NCBI RefSeq assembly: GCF_021295395.1
Contig: NZ_JAIWOU010000001.1
Location: forward strand, 65,001 to 129,000
Length of the DNA: 64,000 nt
Source of the DNA: Komagataeibacter sp. FNDCR2
GTDB taxonomy: Bacteria > Pseudomonadota > Alphaproteobacteria > Acetobacterales > Acetobacteraceae
Direction: 5' to 3'
A program made the translations under genes and the position numbers. The notes under the pieces were generated by a model. The model saw nothing but the letters and a program-made list of their open reading frames with translations, did not search any database and was not told the DNA's origin. The first letter of the stretch is position 1, and each line of letters opens with the position of its first letter. Of this stretch, positions 8,914 through 49,314 are shown piece after piece.

Positions 8914-10284
8914 TCAGGCGACGCGGATCAGTTTACGGTTGATGAACTCCTCAATGCCCAGGAAGGACAGTTCGCGGCCAAAGCCAGAGTTCTTGATCCC
9001 GCCAAAGGGCAGTTCCGGGGCTGCGGCCGTCGCCGTGTTGATGAACATCATGCCGGTTTCGACTGCTTCGGCCACCCGTTCCGCCCGGCCAAGGTCACGC
9101 GAGAACACGAACCCGCCAAGGCCATAGGGTGAGTCATTGGCCAGTTCGATGGCCTCATGCTCGCCCGCGACCTTGTGCACGACGGCAACGGGGCCGAAAA
9201 TCTCCTGATAGAAGACCGGGTTGTCCTTTGACACATTGGTCAGGATGGTCGGTTCCATGAAGAAGCCTGTCCGCTCCATCCGCTTGCCCCCGGCCACCAG
9301 CGTCGCTCCTGCCCTGACCGCTTCGTCGGTCTGCGCCAGTGCGGTGTCGAGTGCCTTCCTGCTGCTCATCGGGCCATGGGTGGTGCCCTCGGCCAGCGGA
9401 TCACCAATGCGGAACTGCGTGATCGCCTTTTTCAGGCCCGCGAGGAAGGCGTCATAGACCTTCTCATGCACGATCATGCGCTTGGCCGCCGTGCAGACCT
9501 GCCCGTTATTGGCAAACCGGCCCCACGTCGCCCACTTGACCGCCAGTTCAAGGTCCGCGTCATCCAGCACGATGAACGCGTCGCTGCCGCCAAGTTCCAT
9601 CGTGTCCTTCTTCAGCGCCGCCCCCGCTTCGGCCGCGACCGTCTGGCCCGCGCGTTCGCTGCCGGTCAGGGCGACGCCACGGATGCGGACATCCCTGATC
9701 AGTTCGGCCGACTGATCGTTGTCGAGGAAGATATTGGTATAGACGCCAGCAGGCGCGCCCGCGTTATGAAACAGCTTTTCAAAGGCCAGCGCGCATTGCG
9801 GCACGTTGGGCGCGTGCTTGGCGATGACCACGTTGCCCGCCATCAGGTTCGGCCCCGCCACGCGGGCAAGCTGGTAATAGGGGAAATTCCATGGCTCGAT
9901 ACAGTAGATCAGGCCCAGAGGCTGGTTGATGATCTTCGCATGGCCTTCCTTAACCTTCAGATGCGTGGGGGCAAGGAATTCTGCCGCACCATCGGCATAG
10001 AAGGACAGGATATCAGCGGTGATGTCGATTTCTTCCAGCGCGTCAGGCAGGGCCTTGCCCATTTCGGTCGCGATCAGGCGCGCATGGGCCACCCGGTCGC
10101 GGCGCAGCAGGTCGGCGGCCTTCGACATGATGACCTTGCGAGCGGCGATATCGCGCTTCTTCCAGTCGGTCTTCCACACATGGTCCGCGCGATCGACAAT
10201 CGCCTTCATCTGCGCGGCGGTGTGCAGTTCGAACGTGCGTTCCACGGTTTCCGTGGTCGGGTTGAGGGTCTGGTAAAAACTCAT
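8914..10284 (-). CDS. NAD(P)-dependent aldehyde dehydrogenase (succinate-semialdehyde type)
   Basis: The 456-residue ALDH opens with LNPTTETVERTFE and has the general-base segment MELGGSD (Glu) and the nucleophile in NNGQVCTAAKR (Cys). PWNFPYY and the ending FGGIKNSGFGRELS are family signatures. The closest type is the NAD-dependent succinate-semialdehyde dehydrogenase group of ~456 residues, oxidising an aldehyde to its acid. I start at 10284 because CAGGGA precedes that ATG; the longer frame runs into the upstream gene. It is 16 bp behind the Old Yellow Enzyme gene, so the two probably form an operon under the HxlR regulator. Confidence 0.92.
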   Translation of the reverse strand: MSFYQTLNPTTETVERTFELHTAAQMKAIVDRADHVWKTDWKKRDIAARKVIMSKAADLLRRDRVAHARLIATEMGKALPDALEEIDITADILSFYADGAAEFLAPTHLKVKEGHAKIINQPLGLIYCIEPWNFPYYQLARVAGPNLMAGNVVIAKHAPNVPQCALAFEKLFHNAGAPAGVYTNIFLDNDQSAELIRDVRIRGVALTGSERAGQTVAAEAGAALKKDTMELGGSDAFIVLDDADLELAVKWATWGRFANNGQVCTAAKRMIVHEKVYDAFLAGLKKAITQFRIGDPLAEGTTHGPMSSRKALDTALAQTDEAVRAGATLVAGGKRMERTGFFMEPTILTNVSKDNPVFYQEIFGPVAVVHKVAGEHEAIELANDSPYGLGGFVFSRDLGRAERVAEAVETGMMFINTATAAAPELPFGGIKNSGFGRELSFLGIEEFINRKLIRVA

Positions 10285-10300
10285 TGGTCCGTTTCCCTGT

Positions 10301-11431
10301 TTATTGGTTATGGAAAGGGTAGTCGGTGTAGCCATGCGCGCTGCCGCCATACATCGTCGCCGGGTCCAGCGGATTGAGCGGCCAGTTATGTTCCAGCCGC
10401 GCGGGCAGGTCCGGATTGGCGATGAACTTCCGGCCAAAGCCGATCATGTCCGCCCATCCATGGCCCAGCACATGCTGCGCCTTGTGCAGGTCGTACCGAC
10501 CCGCGCACAGGATGCGGCCGCCAAAGATGTCGCGCACGCTGGCGCGGAAGGCGTCCGGCATTTCGGGTGCGTTGTCCCAATCAGCCTCGGCCAGCGAGAC
10601 ATAGGCGATGCCTGCCTCGGCCAGCACGCGTACGGCCTGCGTGTAGGTCTCCGCCGGATTGTCCTCCAGCAGGCCGAGATAGACGCGCTCTTGTGTGGTC
10701 GTGCCAAACAGCGGGGAAAACCGCACGCCCATCCTGTCAGGCGTAACCACGGCGGAGACGGCTTCCACCACCTCGCGCAGGAAGCGCAGGCGGTTGGACA
10801 GGCTGCCGCCATAAGCATCGGTGCGGAAATTGGCGCGTTCGGATAGGAACTGGTTGATCAGATACCCATTGGCGGCGTGGATCTCCACGCCATCGAAGCC
10901 TGCGGACAGCGCATTACGCGCCGCCTGCGCATACATCTCCACCAGTTCATGGATTTCGGGGACGGAAAGTGTGCGCGGCATGTCGGGTGGGACCAGCTTT
11001 CCCGTGCCCGGTCCCGTGGGGATGAACACGTTTACGCCTGTTGCCGCGACGGCGGCCGGGGCGATCGGTGCCTCATGACCGGGCTGCAATGCGCGGTGGG
11101 AGACGCGGCCGACATGCCACAATTGTGCAAAGATGGGCCGCCGCGTTGCGTGCACCGCGTCGGTGACGAGTTTCCAGCCTGCGATCTGTTCGGGGGAGTA
11201 AATGCCCGGCGTCCACGCATAACCCTGTCCGCGGGGTTCGATCTGCGTGCCTTCGGTAATCAGGCAACCCGCCCGAGTGCGCTGCGCGTAATATTCGGCC
11301 ATCAACGCGTTGGCGATGTCTCCGGGCTGGGTACTGCGGCAGCGTGTCAGTGGCGGCAGGAAGATCCGGTTTTCAAGGGGAAGGTCGCCCAGTCGCACGG
11401 GACCGAATAACGAAGATGAAGATATAATCAA
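10301..11431 (-). CDS. Old Yellow Enzyme family alkene reductase (NemA-like)
   Basis: The 376-residue FMN-dependent TIM barrel has FDGVEIHAANGYLINQFL (the substrate-binding His/Asn pair), YGGSLSNRLRF, and GFGRKFIANPDL near the phosphate site. Such enzymes reduce activated C=C bonds, such as alkyl maleimides or nitro-olefins, with NAD(P)H. It is divergent from an HxlR-type regulator at 11541 and followed by an aldehyde dehydrogenase. This matches electrophile-response operons in other proteobacteria. Confidence 0.93.
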   Translation of the reverse strand: MIISSSSLFGPVRLGDLPLENRIFLPPLTRCRSTQPGDIANALMAEYYAQRTRAGCLITEGTQIEPRGQGYAWTPGIYSPEQIAGWKLVTDAVHATRRPIFAQLWHVGRVSHRALQPGHEAPIAPAAVAATGVNVFIPTGPGTGKLVPPDMPRTLSVPEIHELVEMYAQAARNALSAGFDGVEIHAANGYLINQFLSERANFRTDAYGGSLSNRLRFLREVVEAVSAVVTPDRMGVRFSPLFGTTTQERVYLGLLEDNPAETYTQAVRVLAEAGIAYVSLAEADWDNAPEMPDAFRASVRDIFGGRILCAGRYDLHKAQHVLGHGWADMIGFGRKFIANPDLPARLEHNWPLNPLDPATMYGGSAHGYTDYPFHNQ

Positions 11432-22920: not shown

Positions 22921-23381
22921 CGGGTGGGGATAAGAGTGCCCCCTGAAGGTCTTTGACATCCTGCTTGATATCAACCGCCGGGATGGCATGCGTGGCATAC
23001 GGCTTTGGGCTGCTGCAGCCGATCAGAGTGTTCTGCGACATCTCGCTGCGTGCGTTTGACGAAGTCTGGCCCGCAGCAAGACGACCGGAACAGCTCCGTA
23101 TGTCTGACGCCGGAGCAACTGGTGGAGTTTGTTGGCGCAAAATGGGTCGATGTCAGCCAGTACTCATGTCCAATTTCGCCTCAAACTGGACGTTCAATCG
23201 CAGTCGACGCTGCACCGTTAGCGGACATATTGTCTCGATCGACTGTCCAGTTTGTCGCATCTGTCAACAGACGACAAAACGGTCGCTCCCCGCTGATGGT
23301 GGTGAGCGAGAAAATTGCGAAAGCTACTCTAAATAGCTCCTGAATCTATTTATAGACGCGCGTAATTGGAACGTAATTGCG
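22921..23381. other. 460-bp intergenic region, left edge of low-GC insert
   Basis: I see no convincing gene here. Base composition falls from the high-GC sorbosone dehydrogenase gene towards the nuclease/ATPase module. A 10-bp inverted repeat CAAACTGGAC (23182-23191) / GTCCAGTTTG (23245-23254) encloses 53 bp. Open frames in this stretch have no recognisable homologues and no good ribosome sites. It may be a scar of the insertion. Confidence 0.5.
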
Positions 23382-25088
23382 TTATTCCGCAGCCAGTATC
23401 TTTTGGAAGAATGGATCGAAGATGTTCTTAACCCGATCAAATTCGTTTTCACGAAGAATTTGGCGCTTGGCTTCGCCATAAGTGGCGATGGCGACCCCTT
23501 CGAATTTAAGCCCTGAAGCGTCCTCGGTAGCAACGATGGTCTGCACGTCGTCGGGAACGTGATCGAAAATGAACTTCAACATCTGGGGAAGGTGAACTTT
23601 GTCCTGACCTTGCTGGTTCGGGGAATCAATCACGACAGGGAATCTGATGCTCGTCGTGAATTTAATCTTCGTGTAAAGGAACGCATAATAGTAAGCCAAT
23701 AAAGCCCGCGGTCCCTCGCTTCCTCGCGCAACGTTGATGGAAACGATTGACTGCTTTTCCGGTGCGTCGAGATGGACGTCCAGTTCCTGCGAATACATCG
23801 ACAGTCGGGAGCGATAAAATCTCATGATCTCCGAGGTGCGCATTTTTTCGGTGAACTTACTCATCGAAGCACGCAGAAGCTCGGTTTTATTTCTGGAACC
23901 GTCCGCCGCCACAATCTTTTCGTTTAGCGATACCCGGAGAAGCTTGGCGGCTTCGGTTTTGCCGGCCGCGACGAGCACGTCATTGAGGGACAGCGACTGT
24001 TTTTCCGTTTCGAGAATCTTTTGGACGCGCGTCAGGCTTGCACTGATCTCGTCAAGCTTTCCTCGCTGGGCCAGCTCCTTTTCGGTAAGTCTTCCCAGTT
24101 TATACTTCGCCTCAGTCAGCGCCTTCGACAAGACGCCCTCATCCTCGATCAAGGCGAACCTTTCGGCAAGGGAGTTCTGGTACTCGTGCCCGCAGGTGGG
24201 GCACTCAACCTGATGTGGTAACGAGGACGCGAGGTCGAACTCACCTCGCATTTCGTTCAGAGTATTCCTGAGGAAAGCAGCTTCGGCCCTGACAAGATGA
24301 GATTCCTCATGAAGGTCGGACATCGTCCGACGATGCCTCGCCTGCAGCACAAGAAGACGCTCGCTTTCCGCAACAAGATCATCGCACTCGCTGGCAAATT
24401 CCTGCAAGTCGTAGATTGGGGTCGTGCCTTCGATCTCTTCAAGCTGGGTCATCGCCTGGCGAAGCGTGTCGACGGCAGTCTCCAAGCTGGAAAGGACGAT
24501 CTTCTCCTTCGTAAGTTCGGCCTTGGCGGCATAGTAGCCATCCGGCCGTATGCCTGAATGATAATCCGCAAGCGTACGCACACTCTCTGGCAGGTAGAAG
24601 TCCTGGCGGAAGGAGACCCAAGTATTGTCCCAGCTTCCATCTTGATCAATGTAGAACGGTGCGAACAGATACGCAGGCGGCGGCGTTAATGTTTCCCCAT
24701 CCTTGTCCACCATCTCCAGCTTGAAGCCGAAGAACTCGGCAAGCTTTGGCCCCCAATCTTTGACCAGTCGCTGCCCCCAGAACTGTCTGTTGCCCTTGTC
24801 ATCGAAGAGCGAAAGCATTCCGTGGGCCTTTACCGAAAACCAGATCGCACCCGCGAACTCAAATTCGAGGCAACTCGATACGTTGGCTTTCTTCCAGCGG
24901 TCGTCAATCTTGTTCGGCGTCGCGCCTAGAGTCTCGTACAAGCTCTTCATTATAACTGACTTTCCAAAGCCGTTTGCGCCTTGAATCAACAGTTTTTGTG
25001 AACGCAATGGTACGTGCAACGCTCTCTTTTCGACTTGCGACAACAGGTAGAGATTTTTGAATTTTACCGTTGGCATTGCTACTCTCAC
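23382..25088 (-). CDS. SMC/Rad50-like ABC ATPase (Lamassu LmuB / ABC-3C type)
   Basis: The 568-residue protein has a Walker A GANGFGKS (37-44), then coiled-coil-prone segments (~190-290 and 305-430) around a zinc-hook-like CPTCGHEY (CxxC at 296-299). A signature-like GSEGPRALLA follows (~456-465), and Walker B PVVIDSPNQQGQD (~484-496). This is the head/coil/hook/coil/head plan of a compact SMC protein that clamps DNA. The start is GTG at 25088 or ATG at 25076. It lies 45 bp after a DUF4297 nuclease-like gene. An SMC-type ATPase plus a Cap4/DUF4297 effector is the core of Lamassu (ABC-3C) anti-phage systems. The lower GC fits acquired defence DNA. Confidence 0.8.
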   Translation of the reverse strand: MRVAMPTVKFKNLYLLSQVEKRALHVPLRSQKLLIQGANGFGKSVIMKSLYETLGATPNKIDDRWKKANVSSCLEFEFAGAIWFSVKAHGMLSLFDDKGNRQFWGQRLVKDWGPKLAEFFGFKLEMVDKDGETLTPPPAYLFAPFYIDQDGSWDNTWVSFRQDFYLPESVRTLADYHSGIRPDGYYAAKAELTKEKIVLSSLETAVDTLRQAMTQLEEIEGTTPIYDLQEFASECDDLVAESERLLVLQARHRRTMSDLHEESHLVRAEAAFLRNTLNEMRGEFDLASSLPHQVECPTCGHEYQNSLAERFALIEDEGVLSKALTEAKYKLGRLTEKELAQRGKLDEISASLTRVQKILETEKQSLSLNDVLVAAGKTEAAKLLRVSLNEKIVAADGSRNKTELLRASMSKFTEKMRTSEIMRFYRSRLSMYSQELDVHLDAPEKQSIVSINVARGSEGPRALLAYYYAFLYTKIKFTTSIRFPVVIDSPNQQGQDKVHLPQMLKFIFDHVPDDVQTIVATEDASGLKFEGVAIATYGEAKRQILRENEFDRVKNIFDPFFQKILAAE

Positions 25089-25133
25089 TGAGTTTTCGAA
25101 GGACTCGCCGCAGTCTCATAGTGTTGTCGTCTG

Positions 25134-26222
25134 TCATGTCATGGCTTCCATCAACTCGACGATCATGGCGGACTGGAGATCGTAGGGCTCTGACGTGGGC
25201 TCAACCAGGCCGTGGGCTTTCAAGGCTACGGCCGCCTCCTTTACGCTCTCCATCGTGCTCACTGCGGTCTTGTCGATTGCGCCGCGGATCGCTTCGCTCA
25301 GATTGGTGGCCGCCCTGATTCCAATGCGACGGGCATCAACATACGCTATGCACATGTTCTTAATACGCTGGATTTGTATCGCTTTCATTCCATCGGCAGC
25401 GAATTCGTCTTTCACGCTAGACCACCATTCGACAAGATTTTTCCGCCTGCTCTGAACCCGTACGATCAGACGGTTGATCGCTTCGCGGTCCAAAGCAACA
25501 CGCTTACGCAATTCTTCGACAGTCGCCGACTTGGTCTTGTTGCCGGTACACTCACCCGCGGCAGCAAGGAGAGTCGTGTAGAAAGGGCTGGAGACGGCTA
25601 CAAAATCCGGATCGAGTTCTTCTAACATCGTTACGATCCTGCCAAGCACCGTGGCGCGATAGCTTTCCAGATCGAATGGAACACGCTCGAAAGTCAGAAG
25701 CGTCACGTGGCTCTTGTCGAAACCGGTAGGGAAATCTTCCTCTAGTGACTTCATTAGTGCTTTCTGATCAGCGGAGCAGAGATCGGCGATCGAAAGCTCG
25801 CCATCGTGGAGACCAGATTGGGTGGCTGTAGCCAAGGTTGCGTTCAGCGGTCGGTTCGACAATATTGATGCTCGGCGAATTTCTGGGCCGAACTGTGCAA
25901 TATTATAGTACGCCTTGCCGATGATGGATTTCGGCAGTTCACCCTTCGGGCTTCGCCTAGCGAGCCTCTTGGCGGTCCAAGTCAGTTCGCTGCTCGATTT
26001 CACTTGATAGAATGAAAGCTCTGAGTTCTCACCTTCTCCAACGAAAACGACGAGATCGTCGTGATGATCGAACAGGGCGACGAATTCCTTGCCTTGCTTG
26101 AAGATGTCGAGAACCAGCGCTATCGACACGTTCACCTGAAAGTCAAAGGCTCTGAACGCGGATGGGCCGGCGGTTTCGCGCGGCTGTTTCGATGCTACCG
26201 TCTTTAACGTGGGCTTTGGCAA
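25134..26222 (-). CDS. DUF4297 / Cap4-type nuclease-like effector (Lamassu LmuA-like)
   Basis: The 362-residue protein begins with the DUF4297 pattern. FRAFDFQVNVSIALVLDIF forms the first helix, then DDLVVF (Asp near 55-56), then a strand ending FYQVKSSS (QVK at ~72-74). This is the PD-(D/E)xK arrangement of the Cap4 family, which cleaves double-stranded DNA. The remaining ~280 residues are helical and lack a SAVED sensor domain, so activation must come from a partner. The partner is probably the ATPase downstream. Its stop overlaps an ATG in ATGA form at 25137, but the frame that opens there is mostly a shadow of the ATPase gene. Confidence 0.8.
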   Translation of the reverse strand: MPKPTLKTVASKQPRETAGPSAFRAFDFQVNVSIALVLDIFKQGKEFVALFDHHDDLVVFVGEGENSELSFYQVKSSSELTWTAKRLARRSPKGELPKSIIGKAYYNIAQFGPEIRRASILSNRPLNATLATATQSGLHDGELSIADLCSADQKALMKSLEEDFPTGFDKSHVTLLTFERVPFDLESYRATVLGRIVTMLEELDPDFVAVSSPFYTTLLAAAGECTGNKTKSATVEELRKRVALDREAINRLIVRVQSRRKNLVEWWSSVKDEFAADGMKAIQIQRIKNMCIAYVDARRIGIRAATNLSEAIRGAIDKTAVSTMESVKEAAVALKAHGLVEPTSEPYDLQSAMIVELMEAMT

Positions 26223-26542
26223 TGACTCTCGTTCCAGAAGGGTTTGAAAGTTTTACCAACGTAATACAAAAAATAGAAGTGAGGCTATAGCCAGCAGCGT
26301 CGGATCACTGGTGGCGTTAGTTGTAAGACACACCAGATCTCGGTGAAATGTGCTCTTTCAAGATAAAGGCAAGTGCCTAGCCATGACCAAATGAGGGCGC
26401 TTCGCAATCGAAACATGACGACCTCGGGAACAGCCGTTTTCTCACCCCGGCAGCCCATGAGCAGGCTGTCTGCTCTCCCCCCCCCCTTTTGCCTCATGCC
26501 TATGTACGACATGCCGTTTCAGACGATTGAACGCCTTAATCT
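26223..26542. other. intergenic region with a run of ten C residues
   Basis: No gene is recognised in these 320 bp. A homopolymer of ten C (26477-26486) followed by TTTT stands out in an otherwise mixed sequence. The open frame crossing it on the minus strand (26285-26512) has no known relatives and no good ribosome site. GC returns to the high level of the cytochrome gene after this point, so the right edge of the acquired insert is probably here. Confidence 0.5.
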
Positions 26543-27088
26543 TCAATCCCGTCCACATTGCCAGGTCATGCTCCGCAGCACCCCATCGTGCCGGATCAGC
26601 CCGTGAAACAGGGCCGCGCCTATGTGAAGCAGCACGAGCCCGAACAGCAGCAACGCCAGCACCGTGTGGGCTGACCGCAGCGCTGCCCATAAAGCCGGAT
26701 CATGCGGCAGGATCGGTGGCAACAGCACGGACTGCCGCCATAACGGAATGGGATAGCCACCGGCCGACAGCATGCCCCAGCCGACAAGCGGCATGGCGAT
26801 CATCAGCGCATAAAGCAGCAGATGCGATGCCTTGGCCCCGATTTTCATCATGAATGGAAGTTCTTCCGGGAATGCTGGTGGCGGTGAACGAAGGCGGTTT
26901 GCCAGACGCACAAGCGCGAGCACAAGGATGGCAATGCCCAGAGGGCGATGCAGGGTCACCAGCCGATCGTAATTCGGCCCCACGGTCGAGGCCATAAACA
27001 CGCCGATGCACAGCATGGTCAGGATCATGACGGCCATCAGCCAGTGCAGGATACGCGATGGCAGGGAAAACGATTTTGCGCTGGTCAT
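26543..27088 (-). CDS. cytochrome b561 family protein
   Basis: The 181-residue protein has four transmembrane helices. Haem-ligand histidines appear in SRILHWLMAVMI, VTLHRPLGIAIL, ASHLLLYALMI and LLHIGAALFHGLI, as expected for bacterial b561. It carries electrons from the quinone pool across or along the inner membrane. The start overlaps the catalase stop by ATGA, so the two are translated together. The likely role is feeding electrons to the periplasm-facing catalase-like peroxidase. Confidence 0.93.
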   Translation of the reverse strand: MTSAKSFSLPSRILHWLMAVMILTMLCIGVFMASTVGPNYDRLVTLHRPLGIAILVLALVRLANRLRSPPPAFPEELPFMMKIGAKASHLLLYALMIAMPLVGWGMLSAGGYPIPLWRQSVLLPPILPHDPALWAALRSAHTVLALLLFGLVLLHIGAALFHGLIRHDGVLRSMTWQCGRD

Positions 27089-28179
27089 GATTTTTTCCCT
27101 TCGGCACCGCCCGGCGCGGCCGTCATGGTCGGAGTGATGGCGGGCACCGGGGGCTTTTCACCGGAACGCGCGGCGAATGATCGCATGTAGGCGGCCGAAC
27201 GGGCCTGAAGGATTGGATCACCGGACGGCCTGATACCCTGCGGCAGCACCAGCGGATCGAAGGTGATGCCGGCACAGGGACCGTCTTCCTCGCTTTCGAC
27301 AGTTGTGAGCGTCAGGGTTCCGGCGTCGATTTGCCGGTCGTCTTCCGCCCAGCCCTGGCTCGGGTCGTCGATGACATCGTGATTGCCCGCCACCGTCACC
27401 ATCAGCCGCCATTGCAGGGGGTGAGCGTGAAGGTCATTGATCAGATGGCGGAAGAGGTAATCGTGGTCGTCGGCGTGAGCATCGACCGATATGACAGGCT
27501 GCAAAGGCACCATGGACCAGCGCACGGCTGATTTTGCGCCGTTCACCGCCACGAACAAGAAACTGTCGAGACTGCGATAGGTGTCATCGGCAAAACCTGA
27601 CGAAAGAGGCCGATGGGTGATCTGTGCGCCTGCTGCCTGCAACCAGGGGTGAGCCGCACGAAAGGCCTTTACCCGCGCGGGGTCTGGTTTTCCGGTTGCC
27701 GGATCGGGGCGCGACGCCAGCTGGAGATCCTGAAACTCCTGCGGAGTCCGGACGGGAAAAACCGGGATGTCGTTGATGCCCATGCGCCACTCCTGGCCAC
27801 CCGGAAGCATCAGGCGCAGCGCTAAGCTGCGGACCTTTGCCGGCGCATCGTCCTGAAAGGGCATGCCCCCGGCGAGGGCGAAACGTCCGACCACGGGAAC
27901 CCGGCCCGGTCGCAGGACGGAGGCCGTCGAAAGCCCGGCGGCATTGCCGTTACCCTCGAACCAGCCCGTCACGCAGACACCCTTGGCATGATTGCGCCGA
28001 AAGCCCGGATGCGTGCCGTCCACTGCACGCAGGGCATCCAGCAGGCTGGTCTGTGTCAGGCGATGGGGCGTCAGCCAGCCGCCGGCCCACAGGAAGCCCA
28101 GCGCCAGGGCCGTTGGTGCCGCGACCACACTGAGCCAGCGCAGAGCTGAGGCAGAGGGCACAAGTGGCTTCGTTGCCAT
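27085..28179 (-). CDS. catalase-family peroxidase (SrpA-like), membrane-anchored
   Basis: The 364-residue protein starts with an N-terminal hydrophobic helix (WLSVVAAPTALALGFLWAGG) that anchors or exports it. It then has the catalase core: GFRRNHAKGVCVTGWFEGNG with the distal His at 64, the Asn region, and FPVRTPQEFQDL. It is shorter than true catalases and matches the catalase-related peroxidase group. It probably reduces peroxides with electrons from the co-encoded cytochrome b561. The promoter region upstream holds a motif shared with the divergent ECF sigma gene. Confidence 0.9.
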   Translation of the reverse strand: MATKPLVPSASALRWLSVVAAPTALALGFLWAGGWLTPHRLTQTSLLDALRAVDGTHPGFRRNHAKGVCVTGWFEGNGNAAGLSTASVLRPGRVPVVGRFALAGGMPFQDDAPAKVRSLALRLMLPGGQEWRMGINDIPVFPVRTPQEFQDLQLASRPDPATGKPDPARVKAFRAAHPWLQAAGAQITHRPLSSGFADDTYRSLDSFLFVAVNGAKSAVRWSMVPLQPVISVDAHADDHDYLFRHLINDLHAHPLQWRLMVTVAGNHDVIDDPSQGWAEDDRQIDAGTLTLTTVESEEDGPCAGITFDPLVLPQGIRPSGDPILQARSAAYMRSFAARSGEKPPVPAITPTMTAAPGGAEGKKS

Positions 28180-48241: not shown

Positions 48242-48408
48242 GCCCGTTCACCGGGATTACGGCAGGGGCAACGTAAGCTGTGTATCCATTCCTTCTTTCT
48301 CCGCCAAAGAGGGACGTGGGCTTTCTAAATGATAAAAGCCAGTCTTAACGTGATATAATTGAATGTCGGCATTTGCAAAACAGAACCGCCAATAAGGTCG
48401 GGGACCGA

Positions 48409-49314
48409 ATGATCAAGCTAAAAAAGATTTTGAACTATCCGGAGGAAGCGACATATCGTGAGCTCCAAAAGCTATCGACGGAATACGGCTATAATGTACA
48501 CGTGAAAATTAGACTTGCAGATGTTCTGCCCATTGAAGGAAGTGGCATCGATCACGCGCACTACAGTTTCGCCCTCAAGTCACATTTCGACTTTCTCATT
48601 TGCAATACAGAGCAAGACCCGATTTTTGCTGTGGAGTTTGATGGCCCGAGCCATAAAGGGCCAGTTCAAATATCACGCGATAAAAAAAAGGATGCACTCA
48701 CCAAACACTTCGAATTGCCGTTACTACGCATTAAAACTAGTCATTTACTCAAGAAATACAATAAGGCAAGTCTTCTGCGATGGATTATCTCGTCCTGGGA
48801 GCTTCAAAGGGAGTTTAACGCGGCACAGGAACGAGGTGAAATTCCAATTGATGAGGATTTCGACCCCATCATGGTCTGGCATTCAGGTAAGACTCTTGAA
48901 GAGGTCCACCCACATTGGCTCGCGCTACAGCCACGCCTTCATATCGACAGGCTCTACAAGGAAGGGCGTTTGCCTGTCCGGAATACCTGCGCCGTCACAT
49001 TTACCGATGAGCAAGGACACAGCCGGGGCATAGAATGGATCGATGTCTCGCCTGGCCAAGTCATTTGCGTCGAAAGCGCAATGCGAGAACAGCAGTTCCC
49101 ACTATATCTAGGCGACTTGTTCCGCGAAATTCTGACGGTACTTTTGCACGAGAAACTTATGATTTTCCTAAGCACTGGTGTTGGTACGGTTGCTCCAGAA
49201 GCTGTGTCCGCTCGACTTCAGGAAATGAGAAGTCGATACAGTTTTTCGGGAAGCTTCGGAGGGAATACATCTGTAAATTTCTCTTTTACGCTTGGTGGGG
49301 AGCACCCAAAATGA
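48409..49314 (+). CDS. DUF2726 nuclease-like protein (cargo)
   Basis: The 301-residue protein has an N-terminal DUF2726 domain: EATYRELQKLSTEYGYNVHV, then SHFDFLICNTEQDPIFAVEF (Asp ... Glu-Phe-Asp) with DGPSHKGPVQISRDKKKDAL, and LPLLRIKTS. This is the Vsr/PD-(D/E)xK-like fold, with the D-(x)n-E-x-D pattern of a metal-dependent nuclease. The C-terminal ~150 residues are unfamiliar. GC is low and there is no close operon partner. I infer a role in DNA defence or repair only from the fold. The start at 48409 is the first plausible ATG; 167 bp separate it from the winged-helix gene. Confidence 0.72.
   Translation: MIKLKKILNYPEEATYRELQKLSTEYGYNVHVKIRLADVLPIEGSGIDHAHYSFALKSHFDFLICNTEQDPIFAVEFDGPSHKGPVQISRDKKKDALTKHFELPLLRIKTSHLLKKYNKASLLRWIISSWELQREFNAAQERGEIPIDEDFDPIMVWHSGKTLEEVHPHWLALQPRLHIDRLYKEGRLPVRNTCAVTFTDEQGHSRGIEWIDVSPGQVICVESAMREQQFPLYLGDLFREILTVLLHEKLMIFLSTGVGTVAPEAVSARLQEMRSRYSFSGSFGGNTSVNFSFTLGGEHPK

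Follow-up and report, generated by a model that had tools for sequence, protein, structure and literature searches.

A predicted two-gene Lamassu type I module in Komagataeibacter sp. FNDCR2

By combining profile searches, predicted protein structures and a comparison of related loci, we found that two adjacent genes in the genome of Komagataeibacter sp. FNDCR2 (3.29 Mb) very probably form an anti-phage/anti-plasmid module of the two-gene Lamassu type I, a prediction from sequence and structure comparison to which we assign a probability of roughly 0.93. The genes lie in a stretch of 64,000 nucleotides, positions 65001-129000 of the contig, here called the window. The initial annotation had described them as a Lamassu-like or ABC-3C-like pair and, as LmuC was not seen, had proposed a minimal variant of a three-gene system. 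The Lamassu identity stands; the absence of a third gene is normal for type I, and the pair is therefore not a new minimal variant and gives no lead to a new system. It is an ordinary member of an already described Lamassu type, and the claim to novelty fails. A search for literature on Lamassu together with Komagataeibacter found none.

The two genes follow each other on one strand, lmuA before lmuB, as had been noted, and 45 nt separate their longest open reading frames (Table 1). For lmuB, the ATG at 25076 is the probable start of translation and would give 564 aa, since the profile match described below begins at residue 5 and the corresponding ATG opens the longest reading frames of three related loci (L003, L004 and L005). 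The lower GC content of the pair was also recovered, at 0.529 vs 0.610 in the remaining window, and values this low occur in 2.3% of the same-length sliding windows within the window. The flanking genes presumably encode a PQQ dehydrogenase and a cytochrome, as the initial annotation named them, and the next gene out, at 27085-28179, has a match to the Pfam family Catalase. A 16S search of the genome, meant to separate chromosome from plasmid, gave no match.

Table 1. Coordinates in the window of the Lamassu genes and associated features.
Feature	Position	Strand	Remarks
lmuA	25134..26222	(-)	362 aa from a TTG; PD-(D/E)xK nuclease of the Cap4/DUF4297 type, C-terminal part helical
lmuB	23382..25088	(-)	Rad50/SMC-like ATPase; longest ORF 568 aa, GTG start
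lmuA-lmuB spacer	25089..25133	(-)	45 nt; place of lmuC in a type II system
Stretch shared with Acetobacter sp. MAG (L002)	23179..26437		96.9% DNA identity; blastn match ends beyond
Conjugative element	29795-61409		Pfam: ParB_N, Toprim_3, YspA-like, RPA replication initiator, peptidase S26, T4SS coupling protein, T2SSE ATPase
DUF2726 protein inside conjugative element	48373-49314		Pfam E=4e-15

Downstream of lmuB, a 19-nt inverted repeat (84%) at 23182-23254 is perhaps a terminator. Beside the module, about 160 bases at 23004-23164 have copies of 73-83% identity in six of the 18 other genomes of the genus, and the same DNA search gave no lmuAB match in these six; the stretch is possibly the remnant of a mobile element. 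When repeats bordering the module were sought, a single 10-nt inverted match was found between the two flanks tested, and the repeats over the whole stretch were weak. A mobile unit delimited by border repeats was rejected, as neither comparison held anything convincing.

Profile searches, one of the checks proposed by the initial annotation, returned the PADLOC families LmuA and LmuB for the two proteins, both almost end to end. LmuB matches PDLC00249 at E=1.9e-199 (residues 5-566 on positions 1-563 of 565), a near-complete match in keeping with the SMC/Rad50-like ATPase of Lamassu type I; in Pfam, nothing above cut-off was found in it. LmuA matches PDLC00238 at E=1.1e-42 over nearly its full length (residues 6-336 on positions 6-337 of 365), and combines an N-terminal effector domain, identified as Pfam Cap4_nuclease (E=2.8e-18, residues 18-209), with a C-terminal domain, as in type I. 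Since Cap4_nuclease is the sole Pfam family in LmuA at E<=1, a SAVED domain was not seen, in agreement with the earlier observation. Neither protein reaches the cut-off in NCBIfam. The D...QVK motif of the nuclease was confirmed as D56, Q73 and K75, invariant in all 21 aligned LmuA (window included), 20 of which also keep E16 and Q29.

The three ATPase motifs were likewise located in LmuB, namely a Walker A (GANGFGKS), a CPTCG zinc hook at C296 and a Walker B (VVIDSPNQQ). We aligned 19 LmuB, omitting the broken sequences of L007, L008, L009 and L037; six of the 19, window included, are close relatives. Residues N39, G42, K43, S44 and D488 are invariant in this alignment, and a CPxC hook occurs in 16 of the sequences. 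The remaining three (L043, L044 and L045) are type I LmuB without such a hook. The usual catalytic glutamate after the Walker B aspartate is absent from the LmuB of the window, where a Ser is found, and the position is Ser, Ala or Thr in all 19. According to passages of a review (PMC10586767), this glutamate is generally replaced in LmuB, by glutamine there as opposed to Ser here, and ATP hydrolysis may be slow or nil. The missing glutamate suggests that the present LmuB is a switch that binds ATP and hydrolyses it slowly, if at all.

Structure prediction for the two proteins led to the LmuAB-DNA complex 9ux7 as the best match of both models, whose mean pLDDT is 85.5 (LmuB) and 77.7 (LmuA). 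The absence of LmuC from this complex is taken from its title, and 9ux8 holds the same sequences. For LmuB, the best fold match was the 9ux7 LmuB (E=1.6e-21), with the LmuACB entries 9hqu, 9hqx and 9uxh just below; for LmuA it was chain C (E=3.1e-6, 353 columns), followed at lower rank by Cap4 and DUF4297-HerA structures. Identity to 9ux7 in the structural alignments is about 16% for LmuB and about 15% for LmuA, and the whole-chain TM-scores to the complex are 0.41-0.49, with rmsd values of 10.5 and 38 A. Bends in the coiled coil or a weak C-terminal model could be the source of these low scores; as they are below 0.5, the fold matches back the family and the architecture, not fine detail.

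With LmuB as a single sequence, the best PDB match was the 9ux7 LmuB (4.5e-6), which was also the sole LmuB structure reached at E<=1, and the corresponding search with LmuA found none. A profile of 17 LmuB reached 9ux7 at 1.1e-48 vs 3.1e-8 for the three-component 9hqu, a comparison that favours 9ux7 in that the profile was made from two-gene relatives. The LmuA profile, made from 19 sequences, scored the Hachiman protein 8zue (1.3e-5) slightly above the 9ux7 LmuA (5.3e-5), both matches being confined to the N-terminal part; this ranking, like the low identities and TM-scores above, counts against the type I reading. The pair resembles the type I complex in having two components of similar sizes, a Cap4-like nuclease and a short Rad50-like ATPase, and differs from it in that both proteins are distant in sequence and LmuA has 315 aa there and 362 aa here. 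Together, 9ux7 and 9ux8 contain four LmuB and two LmuA chains, which suggests a 2:1 stoichiometry of LmuB to LmuA.

The premise of the initial annotation that Lamassu systems usually have LmuC holds in one source and fails in others. The review PMC10586767 calls three components usual while allowing for some systems without LmuC, whereas passages of PMC12409362 and PMC8565338 treat LmuA plus LmuB as the originally described Lamassu, type I, and LmuC as the mark of the later type II, found in about 10% of the Lamassu systems in a PADLOC survey. The sources disagree on the frequency of LmuC, and all of them permit two genes. Type II and ABC-3C systems (LmuACB, DdmABC) share the ATPase superfamily with the present pair, and a Cap4 effector is described for the DdmA of DdmABC (PMC12409362); the difference lies in a third, middle protein, LmuC, and in a longer LmuB (660 aa in 9hqu).

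A minimal variant of such a three-gene system, in which LmuC has disappeared or become joined to the C-terminal end of LmuA, would fit the helical C-terminal part of the LmuA model and the review's view of three components as usual; it is nevertheless very unlikely. The layout is that of type I, with two adjacent genes, and the 45-nt spacer is too short for an LmuC gene; the ABC-3C label is unfit because there is no room for a middle gene. A PADLOC scan of two window ORFs downstream of lmuB gave no match. LmuA is of ordinary length, its 362 aa comparing with 365 profile positions and with 355-397 aa for the longest ORFs of the relatives, and nothing suggests a fusion. The 568 residues of LmuB, regarded earlier as unusually few, are normal for a family whose profile has 565 positions, and are close to the 562 of 9ux7. 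The finding of 9ux7 as the only LmuB structure with LmuB alone speaks against the variant too, as does the profile ranking of 9ux7 over 9hqu, with the lean towards two-gene systems noted above.

Relatives were collected from several sources. A scan of a species-genome collection, reaching close relatives only, gave eight loci, and further genome searches five more; plasmid and phage collections yielded 32 and 13 matching records, ten of which were examined. After dropping L001, L010 and L016, which repeat the window, and L036, which repeats the Roseomonas locus L013 with the same scores, 22 relatives were left, nine of them from plasmid or phage collections. Matches were found in five of 397 family genomes (E<=1e-20) and in two of 385 class genomes (E<=1e-60), the own genome included in both counts. 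The 13 genomes of the same genus listed in the family search all lack the module, and a DNA comparison covering 19 genomes of the genus left the lmuAB part unmatched in all 18 others.

In 20 of the 22 relatives, LmuA is the immediate upstream neighbour of LmuB and no gene separates them, the exceptions being L007, without the LmuB N-terminus, and L009, which is part of an LmuB only. A scan of virus contigs added 20 loci, 19 with the same arrangement and one (L064) cut off inside LmuB. Among loci with two open frames, the spacing ranges from -26 to 57 nt in the relatives and from -26 to 81 nt in the virus-collection loci. It seems wider in L008 (420 nt) because the start of the LmuB frame is broken there, and the LmuB homology starts immediately after LmuA; in L048, the apparent gap is filled by the remainder of LmuA. 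No separate gene between LmuA and LmuB was found among the 22 relatives and 20 virus-collection loci, which argues against the minimal variant and against a third gene kept in relatives and lost here. These loci are partly non-independent: when LmuB is clustered at 90% identity, they and the window fall into 30 clusters, of which 29 include a member with the LmuA-LmuB pair, L009 alone being the exception.

Two rhizobial relatives, L003 and L004, have an additional ORF of 201 aa on the same strand, 3 nt past the lmuB stop (9708-10313 in both). Pfam and PADLOC gave nothing for it. Nothing in the window or the other loci compared, where it was not seen, matched it better than E=1.5, and a search of 372 class genomes, run without a positive control, was also empty. 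It was rejected as a conserved, required third gene.

Damage to the module is seen in a number of loci. LmuB is split in L037 (two ORFs), L049 and L065. For LmuA, L048 and L057 have a broken copy and L058 an incomplete one. The broken or truncated frames, found in L007, L008, L009, L037, L048, L049, L057 and L065, may reflect sequencing errors or a system that is being lost. That the window likewise holds an inactive Lamassu remnant draws on those of these loci that are relatives (L007, L008, L009 and L037), and we give this little credence, as both frames in the window are open and the motifs intact. A nuclease of Cap4 (CBASS) or DUF4297-HerA beside an unrelated ATPase, for which the shared nuclease family and the lower-ranking Cap4 and DUF4297-HerA fold matches could be cited, is hardly credible given that no SAVED domain was seen (Pfam E<=1), that the partner matches LmuB and not a HerA-type ATPase in PADLOC and the fold search, and that the two genes stay together in relatives and virus loci.

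For the two-gene Lamassu type I module, a likely mode of action can be outlined from the family. Two LmuB subunits would bind ATP and join via their heads and the zinc hook, and the dimer would keep LmuA inactive. ATP-bound LmuB may then sense the ends of an invader's DNA, or DNA that is aberrant, upon which LmuA would be released, assemble and cut DNA, either stopping the invader or killing the cell. Passages of PMC12409362 describe LmuA as freed on activation and forming a homotetramer, by which the Cap4 nuclease is activated, and sensing of DNA ends and stem-loops is reported for Lamassu in PMC12904381. Both results come from other Lamassu systems, and we infer their transfer to the present one.

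The module sits beside a conjugative element (Table 1); for two of the nine element proteins scanned, Pfam returned nothing at E<=1e-5. We take its later genes to resemble a Trb cluster. Its DUF2726 gene lies within the other low-GC stretch of the window, at about 46.4-50 kb. Relatives of the element genes adjoin LmuAB in five of the 22 relatives (L006, L008, L015, L037 and L041), a count made without a background control, with short flanking sequence for many of the loci and with many of the relatives coming from a plasmid collection. It is conceivable, if somewhat doubtful, that type I LmuB as a class is a non-hydrolysing ATP switch and that the module is cargo of Trb-type conjugative elements, serving competition between mobile elements.

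The two-gene order of the window is shared by close relatives in Acetobacter sp., Mesorhizobium, Phyllobacterium, Rhizobium, Gemmobacter and Pseudogemmobacter, whose LmuB are 83-97% and LmuA 78-97% identical to those described here, and whose flanks are different. As the likeness to the Acetobacter sp. locus is limited to the module and its immediate borders (Table 1), the pair has moved from one genomic setting to another. The finding thereby adds to Lamassu type I a compact group of modules in Alphaproteobacteria, 78-97% identical, which spans several genera and has moved between flanks.
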